Part shown: piece by piece, positions 3,258-10,010 of the stretch
How positions within the stretch are numbered: the first letter of the stretch is position 1
Layout of the letters: the number at the start of each line of letters is the position of its first letter
Assembly (NCBI RefSeq): GCF_014205845.1
Contig: NZ_JACHCR010000012.1
Span: 109,004 to 173,003 of the forward strand
Origin: Mucilaginibacter cryoferens
GTDB lineage: Bacteria > Bacteroidota > Bacteroidia > Sphingobacteriales > Sphingobacteriaceae
DNA: 64,000 nt
Direction of reading: 5' to 3'
Position numbers and translations under genes: made by a program
The notes under the pieces: generated by a model
Told to the model about the DNA's origin: nothing
Databases searched by the model: none
Seen by the model: the letters and a program-made list of their open reading frames with translations, nothing else

Positions 3258-3836
3258 ATGAATGTTAAACATTTACTTATTGCCTCAATCTTACTAATAA
3301 CCGGCACAATTGCTTCGGCACAAACCGCGTCCCAGCAGCAAACAGCCGATAATGCCAACGACGACCGTGGCTATACAGTAAAAGTTGGCGACCAGGCCCC
3401 TGCCGATTTTGAACTGCAACTTACCGATGGCACCAAAACATCGTTAAAAAACTTACGCGGCAAAGTAGTTATACTACAATTTACCGCAAGCTGGTGTAGT
3501 GTATGCCGCCAGGAAATGCCCCACCTTGAAAAGGATGTATGGCAGGCCTATAAAAACAAAGGCCTGGTATTAATAGGCGTCGACCGCGACGAACCGCTTG
3601 AAAAAGTAAAACACTTTCACCAGGAAATGAACATAAGCTACCCGTTGGCGCTTGATCCCGGGGCCGATATTTTTGGTCGTTTTGCCAACAAAAAAAGCGG
3701 TGTAACCCGCAATGTGGTAATTGATAAAGATGGTAAAATAGTTTATCTCACCCGCTTATATGATACCCAGGAGTTTGCATCGATGCTAAAAGCTGTTGAT
3801 GCGCTGGTTAACAACAAAACTGCATCTATCAATTAA
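3258..3836 (+). CDS. TlpA/peroxiredoxin-like thioredoxin-fold protein, exported
   Basis: About 192 residues from the ATG at 3258, chosen because it gives a clean signal peptide (residues 1-22, ending SAQ). A start at 3222 would put twelve odd residues before it. The mature part has the AhpC/TSA-thioredoxin fold with the redox pair in WCSVC (Cys80 and Cys83) and a later Gly-Val-Thr-Arg segment holding the cis-loop position. TlpA-type proteins act in the periplasm as thiol-disulfide reductants. It is the first gene after the SAM-I riboswitch and precedes a SusC/SusD pair, so it may reduce a disulfide-bonded sulfur nutrient or keep a partner protein reduced. That role is inferred. Confidence 0.85.
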   Translation: MNVKHLLIASILLITGTIASAQTASQQQTADNANDDRGYTVKVGDQAPADFELQLTDGTKTSLKNLRGKVVILQFTASWCSVCRQEMPHLEKDVWQAYKNKGLVLIGVDRDEPLEKVKHFHQEMNISYPLALDPGADIFGRFANKKSGVTRNVVIDKDGKIVYLTRLYDTQEFASMLKAVDALVNNKTASIN

Positions 3837-3924
3837 ATAATACTGGCCGGTATTATATTGGCATGTACCACCTGCAAATATCAACATTACAAATACCCCT
3901 GTTAAGCACTATATTAAAACTGTT

Positions 3925-4035
3925 ATGAAAACAACAAGTAATCCCCTACACAACATCTCCCCTGCAAAAAAAACTCTGTTATTTAACTGCTCTTTTGTTC
4001 ATGCTTGTATGCAAAGCATGCGTTGTTGCTGTTAA
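3925..4035 (+). CDS. Putative 36-residue leader peptide ending in Arg-Cys-Cys-Cys
   Basis: A small ORF in the 388-base gap between the thioredoxin-like gene and susC. It starts MKTTSNPLHN, contains two further Cys residues, and ends MRCCC followed by TAA, so the last three sense codons are TGT TGC TGT. Two perfect 7-bp hairpins flank the end: 4000-4006 with 4014-4020, and 4026-4032 with 4040-4046. The second uses the Cys codons as its 5' arm. This layout resembles amino-acid attenuators, where ribosome stalling on scarce charged tRNA changes RNA folding. It may instead be a non-functional short frame; there is no homology evidence from this sequence alone. Confidence 0.5.
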   Translation: MKTTSNPLHNISPAKKTLLFNCSFVHACMQSMRCCC

Positions 4036-4224
4036 CCCCACAGCAAAGGTTATAGGGTAAAGGTACCTGCTGCAGCCTGCTGCCTCCCGCTTAACCATCA
4101 AACTACAATCAATTATTTACCAGTGCTAAAAGTGCTTCAGTAGGGCTTGCCATGGCCAAAAAGCTGTTAGCTATACTTCGCCGCACCGGTATCGGCATTA
4201 ACAACTATTCACAATTAATTTATC

Positions 4225-7200
4225 ATGTTTAAAAATTACAAACTTTTACTGGCAATCCTGTTGCCTTTTTTTCTCATCCAAACGGTTGCTGCGCAATCTG
4301 TTAAAATAAGCGGCGTGGTAACCGCTAAGGCCGACGGGCTGCCTCTGCCCGGTGTAAGTATCCTGGTAAAAGGCACCAACACGGGGGCGCAAACCGATGT
4401 TGATGGTAAGTTTACCATCAATGCCAATGTTAACGACGTATTAAAGGTTACCTATGTGGGTTTTACAACCCGGGAGATCGCCATTAAACAAAATGAGAAC
4501 AATTTACAGATAGTATTGCAGAATGCACCCAATTCGCTTAACGAGGTAGTAGTTACAGCACTCAATATTTCTAAAGATAAAAAGTCATTGGGTTATGCCG
4601 TTCAGGGTTTAAAATCGAAAGATATTTCGGAAGCTAAGGAAACCAACCTGGTAAACGCGCTGGCCGGTAAAATTGCCGGTGTGCAGGTTACCAACAGCCA
4701 GGGAGATATGGGATCGTCACGTATCATTATCCGTGGCGAAACTTCTATTGCCGGTAACAACCAGCCGCTTTTTGTAGTTGATGGTATTATTGTTGATAAC
4801 TCCCAGTTTTTGGGCACCAACGGCTCACGCGATTTTTCCAACGCCATTGCCGATCTTAACTCCGAAGATATTGAGTCGGTAACTGTACTTAAAGGCCCCA
4901 ATGCCGCGGCGCTTTATGGCTCCAGGGCAGCAGCGGGTGTTATTCTTATAAAAACCAAAACAGGTAAAGGCTCTAAAGGTTTAGGCATTAATGTAAACTC
5001 CAATACCAGTTTCTCTAATGTACAGCTTTTACCAACCTATCAAAACCAATACGGACAGGGATCAAACGGTAAATTTAGCTATGTTGACGGCAAAGGCGGC
5101 GGCGTTAACGATGGTGTTGATGAAAGCTGGGGACCTGCTTTGGATGGTTCGCTTATACCTCAATTTAATTCCAACGGGGTAGCAGTACCATTTATAGCAC
5201 ATCCGGATAATGTAAAAAACTTCTTCCAAACAGGCGTTACCACAAACAATGGCGTAGCGTTAACAGGCAGTAATGATAAGGCCGATTATCGCTTATCTTA
5301 CAATAACCTGCATCAAACAGGTATTATCCCTAATACATCGCAGGGCCGCAACTCGTTTTTACTGAACTCTACCTTCAGACTGAGCCCTAAGTTAACGGTA
5401 ACTACCATTGCTAATTATATTAAAGATGACGCCGATAATTTACCTGGTGCAGGCGGCAAACGTGCAACCAGTACCATGTTGCAATTTACATGGTTTGGCC
5501 GCCAGGTTGATATCAGCCAGCTAAAAAACTATAAAGATGCCAACGGCAATACTTTTAACTGGAACAATAGCTACTACAGCAACCCCTACTGGCTGGCTTA
5601 CGAAAATACAGTTGGACAGCACAAAAACCACCTGATTGGTAGTGTGGAATTAAATTATAAGATCATCAATGGCTTATCGGCCAATTTCCGTGCCGGGACA
5701 GATTATTATACAGATCGCCGTAAGATCAAGGTAGCTTACGGTACCAACGGCACGCCATTTGGATCGTACGAGGAAGATGCTTACAATGTAAACGAAACCA
5801 ATACTGAAGGCCGCCTGCAATACACCAAAAAACTAAACAGCGACTTCTCGTTAGATGTTTTGGGTGGTGGCAACATCAGCACCATACTGAATGAAGAAAA
5901 CGACCAGATTGCACCTAAACTGGCTGTAGCTGGCTTGTATACCTTAAGTAATTCCCGCGATCCGCTGGTATCATCAAACTACTATGGCAAACTTAAAACC
6001 TACAGCTACTTTACATCTGTTCAATTAGGATATAAAAATTATGCGTTTATTAACGCAACTGCCCGTAACGATTGGTCATCTACCCTGCCAAAAGCAAACC
6101 TGGCTTATTTTTATCCTTCAGTAAACGGAAGCTTGGTGCTTTCAGAGGCACTTGATATCAAAAGCAATGTGCTTACGTACTTAAAACTAAGAGGAGGATG
6201 GTCAAAGGTAGGTAAGGCAACAACTCCTTATCAGCTTATTAATACTTATAACTTTACAGCACCTTTGGGTACTAACCCGCAGCAAAACCTTAATAGCATT
6301 GATTTAAACCCTAACCTGAAACCAGAAACCACCACATCCTCAGAAGCGGGATTTGAAATTGGTTTCTTTCAGGACAGGCTTCATTTAGATGCCAGTGTTT
6401 ACAATACAAACAGTATCAATCAAATATTGAATGTTGATGTTAGTCCATCTACTGGTTATTCGCAAAAACTCATCAACGGCGGGAGCATCAACAATAAAGG
6501 CTTAGAGGTTCAATTGGGCATAACCCCAATAAAATCAAGAGAATTTACCTGGGATATTAATACCAATTATTCCCTTAACCGCAGTAAAGTGATCTCGCTT
6601 TATCCGCAGGGCAACCTGCAAACCTTTGTCTTGGGTAGCGACCGTACCGTACAGGTTTTAGCTGCTGTTGGCCAGCCTTATGGTACTTTATACGGTAACG
6701 CTTACCAACGTAATTCATCAGGACAAATCATTGTTGCGGCTAACGGCACACCGGTTATTAATCCAACCAAACAATACCTGGGTAAATTTACACCTAAATG
6801 GCTGGGTAGCATCAACAACAGCTTTAGCTATAAAGGTGTCAATCTTAGCTTTTTGGTTGACGCCCGTTTTGGCGGCTCTATTTATTCAAACACCAACCGT
6901 ACCGGTACCTATACCGGCGTATTGGCCTCAACCTTACCGGGCCGTGGTGCTGCAAATGGTGGCTTAAGCTACTATTATCCGGGTAACAATACCTCGGCAA
7001 CAGCTGTTCAGGCAACTACCGCCCCGGCCGGCGAAACTGTTTACCACGATGGGATGATATTTAAAGGCGTAAAAGCTGATGGTACAGCAAACACTACCAT
7101 ATTGCCTGCCCAATCGTACTATAAAGGTTTTACCAATGTTGATGAAGCGTTTGTTTACGACGCATCGTACATTAAGCTGCGCGAGGTTAAACTGGGTTAC

Positions 7201-7404
7201 ACCTTTCCGTCAAGATGGGTAAAAAGCGTTGGTTTACAGGCAGCAACCCTGTCATTAGTTGGCCGTAACCTTTGGATCATCCACAAAAATGTGCCTAACA
7301 TCGATCCTGAAACAGCCTTTAACTCGGGCAATGGCCAAGGACTGGAAGACCTTACCCTGCCAACCGTACGCAATATTGGCTTTAACATCAACCTTAAATT
7401 TTAA
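4225..7404 (+). CDS. SusC/RagA-family TonB-dependent outer-membrane transporter
   Basis: A 1059-residue protein with a signal peptide (1-24), a carboxypeptidase-regulatory-like N-terminal extension (about 28-105), a plug domain (about 115-235, with LNEVVVTALN at the entry and the VDGIIVDN segment) and a 22-strand-type barrel to a C-terminal Phe. SusC proteins form the outer-membrane barrel of SusCD complexes and take up oligomeric or bulky nutrients using TonB energy. The susD partner starts five bases later. The gene lies downstream of a SAM-I riboswitch, a thioredoxin-like gene and a Cys-rich leader ORF, so its substrate may be a sulfur compound rather than a glycan. The substrate is inferred, not shown. 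Confidence 0.95.
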   Translation: MFKNYKLLLAILLPFFLIQTVAAQSVKISGVVTAKADGLPLPGVSILVKGTNTGAQTDVDGKFTINANVNDVLKVTYVGFTTREIAIKQNENNLQIVLQNAPNSLNEVVVTALNISKDKKSLGYAVQGLKSKDISEAKETNLVNALAGKIAGVQVTNSQGDMGSSRIIIRGETSIAGNNQPLFVVDGIIVDNSQFLGTNGSRDFSNAIADLNSEDIESVTVLKGPNAAALYGSRAAAGVILIKTKTGKGSKGLGINVNSNTSFSNVQLLPTYQNQYGQGSNGKFSYVDGKGGGVNDGVDESWGPALDGSLIPQFNSNGVAVPFIAHPDNVKNFFQTGVTTNNGVALTGSNDKADYRLSYNNLHQTGIIPNTSQGRNSFLLNSTFRLSPKLTVTTIANYIKDDADNLPGAGGKRATSTMLQFTWFGRQVDISQLKNYKDANGNTFNWNNSYYSNPYWLAYENTVGQHKNHLIGSVELNYKIINGLSANFRAGTDYYTDRRKIKVAYGTNGTPFGSYEEDAYNVNETNTEGRLQYTKKLNSDFSLDVLGGGNISTILNEENDQIAPKLAVAGLYTLSNSRDPLVSSNYYGKLKTYSYFTSVQLGYKNYAFINATARNDWSSTLPKANLAYFYPSVNGSLVLSEALDIKSNVLTYLKLRGGWSKVGKATTPYQLINTYNFTAPLGTNPQQNLNSIDLNPNLKPETTTSSEAGFEIGFFQDRLHLDASVYNTNSINQILNVDVSPSTGYSQKLINGGSINNKGLEVQLGITPIKSREFTWDINTNYSLNRSKVISLYPQGNLQTFVLGSDRTVQVLAAVGQPYGTLYGNAYQRNSSGQIIVAANGTPVINPTKQYLGKFTPKWLGSINNSFSYKGVNLSFLVDARFGGSIYSNTNRTGTYTGVLASTLPGRGAANGGLSYYYPGNNTSATAVQATTAPAGETVYHDGMIFKGVKADGTANTTILPAQSYYKGFTNVDEAFVYDASYIKLREVKLGYTFPSRWVKSVGLQAATLSLVGRNLWIIHKNVPNIDPETAFNSGNGQGLEDLTLPTVRNIGFNINLKF

Positions 7405-7409
7405 TTATC

Positions 7410-8849
7410 ATGAAACTTAAATATACAACCATCATATTATCCGGCGCGCTTTTATTATCGGCGGCGTCGTGCAAAAAAGATTTGGTAAAAATTAACCAAA
7501 ACCCAAACAACTCGCAAACGGCGCAGCCAGATTACCTGCTTACCGCAGCCACCAAGGCAACTGCCGATACTTATTGGGGAGTTGCCAATACCATGGAATC
7601 GAGTCTATTGTTTGTACAGTACTGGGCCAAAATTCAGTACACAGATCCAGACAGGTATATAGTAACCAACAGCGCCTTCCAGGAGCTTTGGACGGTAGGT
7701 TATTCTAAAAGCATTGTTAACCTTAACCAGATCATTAAACTGGGCGATGCACAAGCCAATACCAACTATAAAGGTGTTGCATTGGTGTTACGTTCATGGG
7801 TATTTACATTGTTAACTGATGCCTATGGCAATATCCCATACAAGCAGGCAGCCAATATCGACCAATACCTTACCCCGGCTTACGACAATCAAAAAGATGT
7901 TTACTTTGCCTTGCTTGATGATTTAAAAGCTGCGCAAACCGCGCTTGATCCGGCAGGTAAAGCTATTGCCGGCGATGTAATTTATGGCAATAATATTGCC
8001 CTTTGGAAAAAGTTTGCCAACTCGCTGCGTTTGCGCATCGCCCTGCGTATTGCCGATAGAGAACCCGCAAAAGCCAAACAGGTTTTGGCCGATATTGCCA
8101 CAGAAGGGGGCTCCTATATTAATGCCACAGCAGAGATAGCTCAATTTACGTATCTGGATTCGCCCAACCAAAACCCGGTGAGCAATTTATTTGATACCCG
8201 CGACGATTACCGCGTAAGTAAAACCATTGTAGATAAGTTAACTACCCTCAATGATCCGCGCTTACCTATCTACGTTAGTAAAACGTCGGCTGCCACGCCA
8301 CAAACCTATGTAGGTATCCCTAACGGATTATTGGTTGGCGATGCCAGTAACCTTGGTTTTACCAAAACATCAAGACCGGGTACTTACTTTTTGGCTCCAC
8401 ATGCCCCGGCTGTGATCATCAGCTACGCCGAGGTATTGTTTGATCGTGCCGAAGCGGCAGCCCGTGGTTTTACCACTGAAAACGCGGCAGATCTGTACAA
8501 GCAGGCTATAGCTGCATCCTTAAAACAATACAGTATAGCCGATGCAGATGCGGCTACGTACACCGCATTACCGGCAGTACAATATGATGCCACCAACTAT
8601 AAAAAATCTATCGGCGAACAAAAATGGATAGCACTTTTTGGCCAGGGGTTAGAAGCCTTTGCCGAATGGCGCAGGCTGGATTACCCGCAACTGCAACCCG
8701 CTGTTGCCGGTACTCTAAACGGTAAAATACCGGTAAGGTTTATTTACCCGGGTACCGAGCAATCGCTTAATGGCGCCAACTATACTGCCGCTGTAGCTGC
8801 CCAGGGAGCCGATGTACTAACCACTAAATTGTGGTTTGATGTAAACTAA
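7410..8849 (+). CDS. SusD/RagB-family nutrient-binding lipoprotein
   Basis: A 479-residue protein with a lipoprotein signal (SAASC, acylated Cys21) and the helical TPR-like SusD fold. The N-terminal LVKINQNPNNS segment and the later WTLLTDAYGNIPYKQA-like motif are typical of the SusD/RagB (SusD-like 2) family. It caps the barrel encoded just upstream and binds the incoming nutrient at the cell surface. The five-base gap to susC implies co-transcription, and a strong terminator follows at 8858-8898. A region near residues 330-345 (AEVLFDRAEAAARG) matches the usual SusD C-terminal helix. Confidence 0.94.
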   Translation: MKLKYTTIILSGALLLSAASCKKDLVKINQNPNNSQTAQPDYLLTAATKATADTYWGVANTMESSLLFVQYWAKIQYTDPDRYIVTNSAFQELWTVGYSKSIVNLNQIIKLGDAQANTNYKGVALVLRSWVFTLLTDAYGNIPYKQAANIDQYLTPAYDNQKDVYFALLDDLKAAQTALDPAGKAIAGDVIYGNNIALWKKFANSLRLRIALRIADREPAKAKQVLADIATEGGSYINATAEIAQFTYLDSPNQNPVSNLFDTRDDYRVSKTIVDKLTTLNDPRLPIYVSKTSAATPQTYVGIPNGLLVGDASNLGFTKTSRPGTYFLAPHAPAVIISYAEVLFDRAEAAARGFTTENAADLYKQAIAASLKQYSIADADAATYTALPAVQYDATNYKKSIGEQKWIALFGQGLEAFAEWRRLDYPQLQPAVAGTLNGKIPVRFIYPGTEQSLNGANYTAAVAAQGADVLTTKLWFDVN

Positions 8850-8902: not shown

Positions 8903-8975
8903 GGCGGAGTGGCCGAGTGGCTTAGGCGGGGGTCTGCAAAACCCTTTACGGTGGTTCGAATCCACCCTCACGCCT
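8903..8975 (+). tRNA. tRNA-Cys (anticodon GCA)
   Basis: A cloverleaf can be drawn: D-arm GCC/GGC, anticodon stem GGGGT/ACCCT around CTGCAAA (anticodon GCA), a four-base variable loop, and a TTCGAAT T-loop on a GGTGG/CCACC stem. The acceptor 5' strand GGCGGAG pairs with CTC and CGCC, but an extra A (8970) interrupts the 3' strand, so the stem has a bulge. CCA is not encoded. It lies between a sulfur-themed susCD pair and a PIG-L deacetylase gene starting 21-27 bases later. Confidence 0.9.
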
Positions 8976-9002
8976 CATTGTTAAGTATTAACTAACATGA
9001 GT

Positions 9003-10010
9003 ATGAAAAAGTTGACTGCTTTATTACTGACCATTATCTTTTACTTTAACGTAAACGGGCTGGAACAGTCCTTAGCCCAGGCCCCATCTCATGGGCCGCG
9101 TGTGTTAGTAGTAATGGCGCACCCTGATGATGAAAGTACATTTTCGGTAGCGTTGTACAAAATTGCGAAGGAGCAACATGGCATTGTAGATCTGTTTGTG
9201 ATAACCAATGGCGAAGCCGGCTATAAGTATTCGACCCTGGCCGAAACCTATTATGGCGTTAACCTTACCGTCGAAAAAACGGGCAGGGCCAACCTACCTG
9301 CCATCCGCAAAAAAGAACTGTCTAATGCCGGTAGGATATTAGGCGTAAACCAATATTACTTTGCCAATCAATTGGACGCTCATTATACTTTGGACGAAAA
9401 AGAACCTTTAGATACCAGCTGGAACACCCAGGCAATTAAAAAACAATTGAACCAGGTATTACTAAACAACCATTACGATTTTGTTTTTACGCTGCTGCCC
9501 GAAACTACAACCCATGGTCAGCATAAGGCAGCAACCTTAATAGCGTTGGGTGCTATAGCCGCTTTGCCTATAGCTAATCGGCCCATTATTTTAGGTGCTG
9601 CCACTTTAAATAAAATAGCTCCTGTTGCCCATTTTACACAATACGCACAATATCCATTAACTAAAACGGTAAGCGACACCGCTTTATTTAGTATAGATCG
9701 TAACGCGTCGTTCAGTTACAAAAACAGGATAAATTATAAGGTTATAGCCAACTGGGAAATTGCAGAACACAAATCGCAAGGCCTTACCCAGATGAGTATG
9801 AACGATGGCGACCTGGAGGAGTTTTGGTATTTCGCAATCAATGGTGAGGCTGGTATCAGCAAAAGTAAAGCCTTCTTTAACGCGCTTGCTAACACACCGT
9901 ATGTGTCTAAAATTTACACTGAGCGTAAACCGGTGTATTCCAAATTAAATTATATGGTGAGCTTGTCGTTCACCACTGGTGATTTAACCGCCGGAAATAG
10001 TTGCCTGTGA
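9003..10010 (+). CDS. PIG-L/LmbE-family deacetylase, exported
   Basis: About 335 residues from the ATG at 9003; a second in-frame ATG lies two codons upstream at 8997. A hydrophobic signal segment (about 1-26) is followed by the PIG-L zinc site: AHPDDE (His40, Asp42, Asp43) and, later, HGQH (about residues 171-174). This fold removes acetyl groups from N-acetylglucosamine-type sugars, as in bacillithiol (BshB), mycothiol (MshB/Mca) and GPI-anchor enzymes. Here an export signal and the nearby riboswitch-controlled importer and tRNA-Cys suggest a periplasmic amidase or deacetylase acting on a thiol conjugate; the substrate is inferred. The stop codon and last residues fall inside a palindromic repeat. 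Confidence 0.85.
   Translation: MKKLTALLLTIIFYFNVNGLEQSLAQAPSHGPRVLVVMAHPDDESTFSVALYKIAKEQHGIVDLFVITNGEAGYKYSTLAETYYGVNLTVEKTGRANLPAIRKKELSNAGRILGVNQYYFANQLDAHYTLDEKEPLDTSWNTQAIKKQLNQVLLNNHYDFVFTLLPETTTHGQHKAATLIALGAIAALPIANRPIILGAATLNKIAPVAHFTQYAQYPLTKTVSDTALFSIDRNASFSYKNRINYKVIANWEIAEHKSQGLTQMSMNDGDLEEFWYFAINGEAGISKSKAFFNALANTPYVSKIYTERKPVYSKLNYMVSLSFTTGDLTAGNSCL

Follow-up and report, generated by a model that had tools for sequence, protein, structure and literature searches.

The short open reading frame (ORF) upstream of susC in the stretch of Mucilaginibacter DNA analysed here (the window, 64,000 nucleotides) belongs to a class of leaders that end in cysteine codons. Comparison of sequences shows such in-frame ORFs with a Cys-rich end repeatedly before several sulfur and transport genes and, at the susC locus, usually behind a SAM riboswitch. 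Cysteine sensing by the leader is likely, and we consider it probable that the leader measures charged tRNA-Cys (perhaps also tRNA-Met) and that stalling at the Cys codons raises the expression of susC and susD. These comparisons give good support to the Cys sensor but not to the switch that it would operate in the window's own species.

When cysteine is short, the ribosome would stall at the Cys codons that end the ORF, and the stalled ribosome would change the fate of the RNA just 3' of it, so that expression of susC and susD rises. When cysteine is plentiful, the ribosome would finish and leave, and a downstream RNA element would lower expression. Uptake by SusCD would presumably relieve the sulfur shortage.

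Organization of the susCD operon

All elements of the operon lie on the plus strand. Its first sensor is a SAM riboswitch (RF00162; 3026-3136), which scores 88.6 bits in Rfam versus a gathering threshold of 44.4. A gene for a TlpA/AhpC-TSA thioredoxin-like protein (3258-3836; PF00578, 5e-25; PF08534, 4.8e-24) stands between riboswitch and leader and was not found at this position in some orthologous loci, e.g., L050, L053, and L055. The leader ORF (3925-4035) comprises 36 codons; its translation, MKTTSNPLHNISPAKKTLLFNCSFVHACMQSMRCCC followed by TAA (MKTTSNPLHN...MQSMRCCC), confirmed the frame ending Arg-Cys-Cys-Cys-stop given in a preliminary description of this site. The peptide had no match in Pfam (E <= 0.01) or NCBIfam (E <= 1). 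Its Cys codons TGT TGC TGT (4024-4032; codons 34-36) are the proposed sensing site. They are flanked by the two perfect 7-bp hairpins already described: hairpin 1 (CATGCTT-GTATGCA-AAGCATG; 4000-4020) lies 5' of the Cys codons, and in hairpin 2 (4026-4046) the Cys codons provide the 5' arm (TTGCTGT, 4026-4032), which is separated by a 7-nt loop from a 3' arm past the stop (ACAGCAA, 4040-4046). Farther downstream, alignments revealed the segment AATCAATTATTTACC (4108-4122), which is kept in many orthologs about 100 nt 5' of susC; taken over the window and its orthologs, the segment reads AATCAATTCTTTACAG and is retained though the leaders have otherwise diverged. The operon continues with susC (4225-7404; SusC/RagA TonB-linked outer membrane protein, TIGR04056, 4.2e-194) and a SusD-like_2 gene (7410-8849; PF12771, 3e-113), directly followed by a tRNA-Cys (GCA) gene (8903-8976) recognized by ARAGORN and the Rfam tRNA model and by a PIG-L deacetylase gene (8997-10010) identified by Pfam profile search. 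A promoter scan, whose model was not built for Bacteroidota, returned 7 sites versus 4.1 in shuffles.

Conservation of the leader among SusC orthologs

Among 149 genomes of the genus Mucilaginibacter, 56 encode this SusC (E <= 1e-100). In the 61 genomes drawn first, 22 orthologs (E <= 1e-111) stood clearly apart from paralogs of about 53% identity. Together with two orthologs from other genera of the family, 58 upstream regions were searched from -320 to -50 for ORFs that start with ATG, comprise 15 or more codons, and have three or more Cys within a window of four among their last eight residues. Such a Cys-tailed ORF precedes 48 of the 58 SusC orthologs and occurs in 5 of 3480 dinucleotide shuffles; it is absent from the 58 reverse strands and from the regions upstream of 22 distant SusC genes. 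Extension to 380 nt raised the count to 51/58, because the ORFs of L042, L063, and L065 are longer (the shuffles refer to the 320-nt stretch). Thus, the search of orthologous gaps that had been proposed as a check found the Cys cluster widely retained. Among the remaining seven orthologs, L046 ends in CYC and L071 in CC, L059, L079, and L095 have a single Cys, and L056 and L094 are the two of the 58 orthologs examined without such a leader upstream of SusC. The 58 regions do not equal 58 independent trials because the orthologs are mutually related, and some rows are nearly identical (e.g., L081 and L084). Four family members (G240, G304, G310, and G340) are not part of the counts, and L134 and L136 were dropped as they contain no SusC match, so that 97 of 99 related sources were counted.

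A run of at least three TGY codons occurs in 48 of the 58 orthologs. In all 48, a stop follows within four codons (26% in shuffles), and in 45 of them an in-frame ATG lies at least 12 codons 5' of the run (13.5% in shuffles), while the other two frames are open in only 1/48 and 3/48 cases, respectively. That frame, stop, and start are kept around the TGY run points to selection on codons and not on a bare RNA repeat, and the conserved frame suggests that the leader is translated. In the set of 55 leaders (all orthologs except L056, L094, and L095), Cys accounts for 46.6% of the last eight residues and 2.6% elsewhere, and Met for 16.8 and 1.6%, respectively. These leaders range from 29 to 58 residues in length, and their sequence outside the tail is free to vary. 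In the 38 leaders that end in CCC, both T and C are used at the third positions of the Cys codons.

Outside the genus, the leader is found 5' of SusC in named records of Niabella, Ferruginibacter, Niastella, and Paraflavitalea. Altogether 6 of 16 named records passed the automatic Cys test. Nine Chitinophaga records (L270-L278) and Arachidicoccus failed it, and no such leader precedes the Chitinophaga orthologs.

Recurrence of Cys-tailed leaders before other genes

All 99 TGYTGYTGYTRA sites of the window's own genome were read, a search that covers clusters ending at the stop and leaves TAG stops aside. Of these sites, 89 lie in or across another ORF of more than 100 aa. Ten are not overlapped, and nine of the ten end a short ATG ORF; L177 contains no ATG ORF. 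Five of the short ORFs are followed by a TonB-dependent or SusC-type receptor gene (the window; L147, whose receptor is that of L360; L178; L204 on the minus strand; and L220) and one by a gene for MetY (L226; TIGR01326, 671 bits), a member of the O-acetylhomoserine sulfhydrylase / cysteine synthase family. The others precede genes for an AhpC/TSA protein (L152), a sigma-70 factor (L204, plus strand), and a protein without a Pfam match (L185). At about positions 2193-2204 of L204, Cys-ended short ORFs thus occur on both strands, with a TonB-dependent receptor downstream of one and a sigma-70 factor downstream of the other; the ORF on the sigma-70 side may be due to chance. The exact motif CGTTGTTGCTGTTAA has two copies in the genome, the second of which was rejected as a leader since it lies inside a 435-codon frame in another register.

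The leader of metY in this genome, which ends in ICMCCCC, starts directly 3' of a SAM riboswitch. In the genus, the 30 best of 58 genomes with a MetY match were read: the Cys test was passed at 27 of the 30 loci (a count made without a shuffle control), and the other three leaders end in RRCC or RSCC. The leader ATG lies 7 nt past the aptamer at four of five MetY loci checked. For a wider sample, 20 loci were hand-picked among 191 matching genomes so that they spread over several families and had high identity. Seven of these Bacteroidota loci have Cys-tailed leaders 5' of metY (L361, L363, L366, L367, L368, L369, and L373), four have weaker tails with two or three Cys, some of them unclustered (L362, L364, L370, and L380), and the remaining nine of the 20 have no Cys-tailed leader; a riboswitch match was obtained at 14 of the 20. 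A second SusC family is preceded by the leader at 18 of 19 loci (again without a shuffle control; L354 is not readable in frame), and no riboswitch match was found at the 18 loci searched. The shared tail before non-homologous genes indicates that the window's leader belongs to a family of leaders with Cys (and Met) codons, some of which stand in tandem with SAM riboswitches, and its recurrence before other sulfur and transport genes suggests that the leader probably reports cysteine shortage to them.

Two further RNA features were observed at these and related loci. The 5' leader of the second SusC family (L342-L360) contains a hairpin, ACCGGCAAGGAAGCCTTGCCGGT, that is conserved and a stem whose loop, CGTAACGCCAATCAC, is conserved as well; an Rfam search of L342 and L360 gave no match up to E 0.05. 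A locus of the genus g14 (L115:392-489) contains a Flavo-1 RNA (RF01705, 47.5 bits).

SAM riboswitches and tRNA-Cys genes

The SAM-I riboswitch senses SAM. The link between susC and an upstream riboswitch, which had been noted for the window, proved to be real and wider than described: the riboswitch model matches near 51 of the 58 SusC orthologs and 5' of metY at all 30 loci read in the genus. In the stretch examined at the other seven SusC orthologs (L042, L056, L058, L063, L065, L085, and L086), no match was found. Across the related sources, the model (R1) matches 89 of 99, some of which were used to build it, and among the 16 named records only the two Niabella loci match. In seven orthologs without an intervening gene (L050, L053, L055, L074, L080, L087, and L088), the end of the aptamer and the leader ATG are 78-123 nt apart, and this spacing suggests that the leader ORF is not leaderless.

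A RF00162 element stands 50 nt 5' of a tRNA-Cys gene elsewhere in the same genome (L169:1501-1733; C8:130096-130328). Four tRNA-Cys genes were found in this genome, and two are in SAM riboswitch contexts (L169 and window 8903-8976). A tRNA-Cys gene also adjoins the susCD locus in L039, L041, L045, L055, L056, and L057, with differing positions and strands; in L057 it separates the thioredoxin gene from the leader. The tRNAs in L045, L056, and L057 were called Cys only at the relaxed threshold of ARAGORN.

RNA structures and the switching step

The clearest candidate for a switch was found in genus g14, which is probably Pedobacter as judged from the identity of named Pedobacter records. The set examined (L097-L133) contains 37 loci, 36 from g14 and one from g20 (L100). 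A hairpin CTGTTA…TAAC(A/G)G is present at 20 of the 37 loci and missing from 17. At 19 of the 37, its 5' arm includes the stop of an ATG ORF together with the Cys codon that closes the peptide (endings such as RMRMPC or RMRGVC), and 16 of these 19 hairpins are followed by at least four T in the next ten bases. In L117, the hairpin is kept and the ORF stops before it, without Cys. A scan for hairpins before T-rich sequence reached a score of at least 6 at 27 of the 37 loci versus 21% of shuffles. A separate terminator-like hairpin is located 3' of the SAM aptamer in the alignment of this set. Judging from the size of the ribosome, a ribosome stalled at the Cys codon would cover the 5' arm and so block the hairpin and termination. 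Most g14 leaders with this hairpin end in a single Cys that is accompanied by one or two Met (RMRMPC, RMRGVC, RMRQSC), and these endings suggest that the signal may involve more than Cys.

In Mucilaginibacter, the structural picture is mixed. Hairpin 2 of the window is a contiguous 7-bp helix (p 0.047 versus shuffled downstream sequence). A stem with the Cys codons as its 5' arm is partly supported by contiguous helices of this kind, which are significant at p <= 0.05 in 13 of 55 leaders (22 of 55 at p <= 0.1), but not by a looser test of RNA duplex formation between the Cys segment and 44 downstream bases (mean z -0.11, 0/55 at p <= 0.05 in the genus; 6/34 in the g14-type set), and many orthologs do not have the stem. 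Hairpin 1 exists, but support for it across leaders is weak and patchy: 16 of 55 have a counterpart of at least 6 bp (8.9% in shuffles). The whole 221-nt region (3900-4120) folds no better than shuffles (z 0.18), and the hairpins alone are therefore weak evidence. In the window, no U-tract follows hairpin 2, and when the Cys codons were masked in the predicted fold, its 3' arm found no new partner (P 0.07 with 4060-4084). The start of susC was predicted to be unpaired about equally in both states (0.83 free, 0.79 with the Cys codons masked). An alternative-pairing model for the window is thus not supported by folding. A terminator scan of the Mucilaginibacter leaders gave a weak result (score of at least 6 in 39/56 versus 48% of shuffles). 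A covariation table for the Cys stem was not counted as evidence because it had been selected on its own core pairs. At the MetY loci, a 2:3 helix versus a 1:2 helix with the Cys codons can be drawn, whose position and partner changes appear conserved by eye; single sequences are not significant, however (1 of 30 at p <= 0.05), although 25 of 30 could form a 1:2 helix with 5 bp or more. Hence the preliminary reading of the site as a cysteine attenuator is partly supported: a translated Cys-codon leader as sensor is favoured by the comparisons, but the analysis revealed neither a terminator nor an antiterminator in the window's leader.

Within susC itself, codons 9-16 (4251-4265) form a terminator-like hairpin, GGCAA/TTGCC, followed by seven T. 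All five pairs are kept in 35 of 54 distinct orthologs, a count uncorrected for relatedness, and in 35 of the 52 gap-free ones versus 9.6% after random synonymous recoding; paired changes include GGTAG/CTGCC and GGTGG/CTACC. A general count of hairpins is less striking (31/54 orthologs, 7/22 distant SusC, 11/37 g14-type).

Nature of the signal and alternative explanations

Because Cys dominates the tail, Met is enriched, and the g14 leaders combine both, charged tRNA-Cys is proposed as the main signal, with the sulfur amino acids as a possible wider one. A role in sulfur metabolism is supported by the link of the leaders to SAM riboswitches, MetY, and tRNA-Cys. The most serious alternative concerns how the leader acts: a stalled or released ribosome may decide over translation of susC, or over loading of Rho on the untranslated gap of about 190 nt. 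This possibility falls somewhat short of an even chance. It would fit a leader that has no intrinsic terminator 3' of its Cys codons, as in the window, and the terminator-like hairpin with its T-run at 4251-4265, but the g14 relatives do have a terminator-like hairpin at the equivalent place, and the susC start is predicted to be mostly unpaired with or without a ribosome.

Explanations that dispense with the codons as sensor are much less probable. The peptide itself might sense copper, zinc, or the thiol state, like nascent exported sensors of metal genes, and both its Cys-rich end and the several TonB-dependent receptors downstream would suit such a role; CutF is described as a nascent protein that does so for copper (PMC9973294). 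We regard this as improbable, since by eye the window's peptide lacks a stretch resembling a signal peptide, the peptides are variable in sequence and length apart from their tails, and SAM riboswitches and a sulfhydrylase are among the neighbours found repeatedly. Moreover, the Cys residues sit at the very end of the chain, and C-terminal residues have not yet emerged from the ribosome when it arrives at the stop. Less probable again is that the TGY repeat is an RNA motif, serving as a structure or protein site, and the ORF incidental: some of the leaders do share a stem that uses the TGY run, but the codons are better conserved than the stems, and an incidental ORF would not account for the retained frame, start, and stop or for the rarity of open reading in the other two frames. 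Chance or shared ancestry alone is very improbable. The close relationship of many orthologs speaks for it, but it is already contradicted by the tail's recurrence in other families and in front of genes that are not homologous, and by its scarcity in shuffles. The proposal that the Cys codons report on charged tRNA-Cys thus remains preferred.

Comparison with known leaders and implications

Short ORFs with Cys codons have a precedent in mycobacteria, where, going by the title of the original study, the polycysteine short ORFs are reportedly leaderless. Unlike these, the leader described here, from Bacteroidota, is embedded in a more extended 5' region that precedes SusC or MetY and in many cases includes a SAM riboswitch upstream of the ORF. 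Common to both is a short upstream ORF with Cys codons, and the mycobacterial ORFs are described as tying downstream genes to the supply of cysteine (PMC9094748 and PMC13236596, citing Canestrari et al. 2020, Mol Microbiol 114:93). In Rhodobacterales, uORFC-8-2 of cysS is a conserved ORF with tandem Cys codons in a stem, followed by a terminator, and was predicted to be a ribosome-mediated cysteine attenuator (PMC8632094). Its Cys codons usually occupy positions 14-15, it belongs to Alphaproteobacteria, and the sections of the article on this element do not mention a SAM riboswitch. The window's leader falls outside that class as it is described there, with SusC instead of cysS downstream and a Cys run at codons 34-36, by the stop. 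In the present leaders the SAM-I riboswitch (RF00162) is a common upstream element, and the transcript would receive a second input, based on tRNA, through the leader.

In the classical trp and his attenuators, the regulatory codons stand where the position of the ribosome decides the folding of the RNA. The present leaders resemble them in having regulatory codons at a point of putative ribosome-dependent folding, and differ from the 1:2 / 2:3 / 3:4 set of helices in that the codons end the ORF and that g14 has a single terminator-like hairpin. Features expected of amino acid attenuators are present at the level of the ORF, i.e., clustered codons in a short 5'-leader ORF and conservation of the cluster in orthologs and before pathway genes. 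As for structure, the window offers hairpin 2 only, without a U-tract or alternative helix, whereas g14 has its terminator-like hairpin at 19 of 37 loci.

Cysteine leaders themselves are already known, predicted in Rhodobacterales (PMC8632094) and studied in mycobacteria. For Bacteroidota, none was found among the matches listed in a literature search that lay mostly outside subscription journals; transcriptome papers on F. psychrophilum and B. thetaiotaomicron, in the passages retrieved, mention leader-peptide-like ORFs in general terms. Within the scope of this search, the novel features are the phylum, the targets (SusC and TonB-dependent receptors), a Cys run placed right at the end of the ORF, and the tandem arrangement with SAM riboswitches.

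There is about an even chance that Bacteroidota contain a large undescribed regulon in which leaders with runs of Cys, often with Met, and SAM riboswitches work together on one transcript. They would act as a two-input gate (SAM and charged tRNA-Cys) on the uptake of sulfur through SusCD and on its fixation by MetY, and tRNA-Cys genes would themselves stand behind SAM riboswitches. To our knowledge, the substrates and control of SusCD systems are largely unknown outside glycan loci. A cysteine leader would mark the SusCD system, like other TonB-dependent receptors that have one, as likely to be linked to sulfur, and it provides a sequence rule to find more of them. A metabolite riboswitch and a sensor of tRNA charging on one leader would let the transcript compare SAM, the end product, with cysteine, and cysteine attenuation, described for mycobacteria and Rhodobacterales, would be extended to the Bacteroidota.
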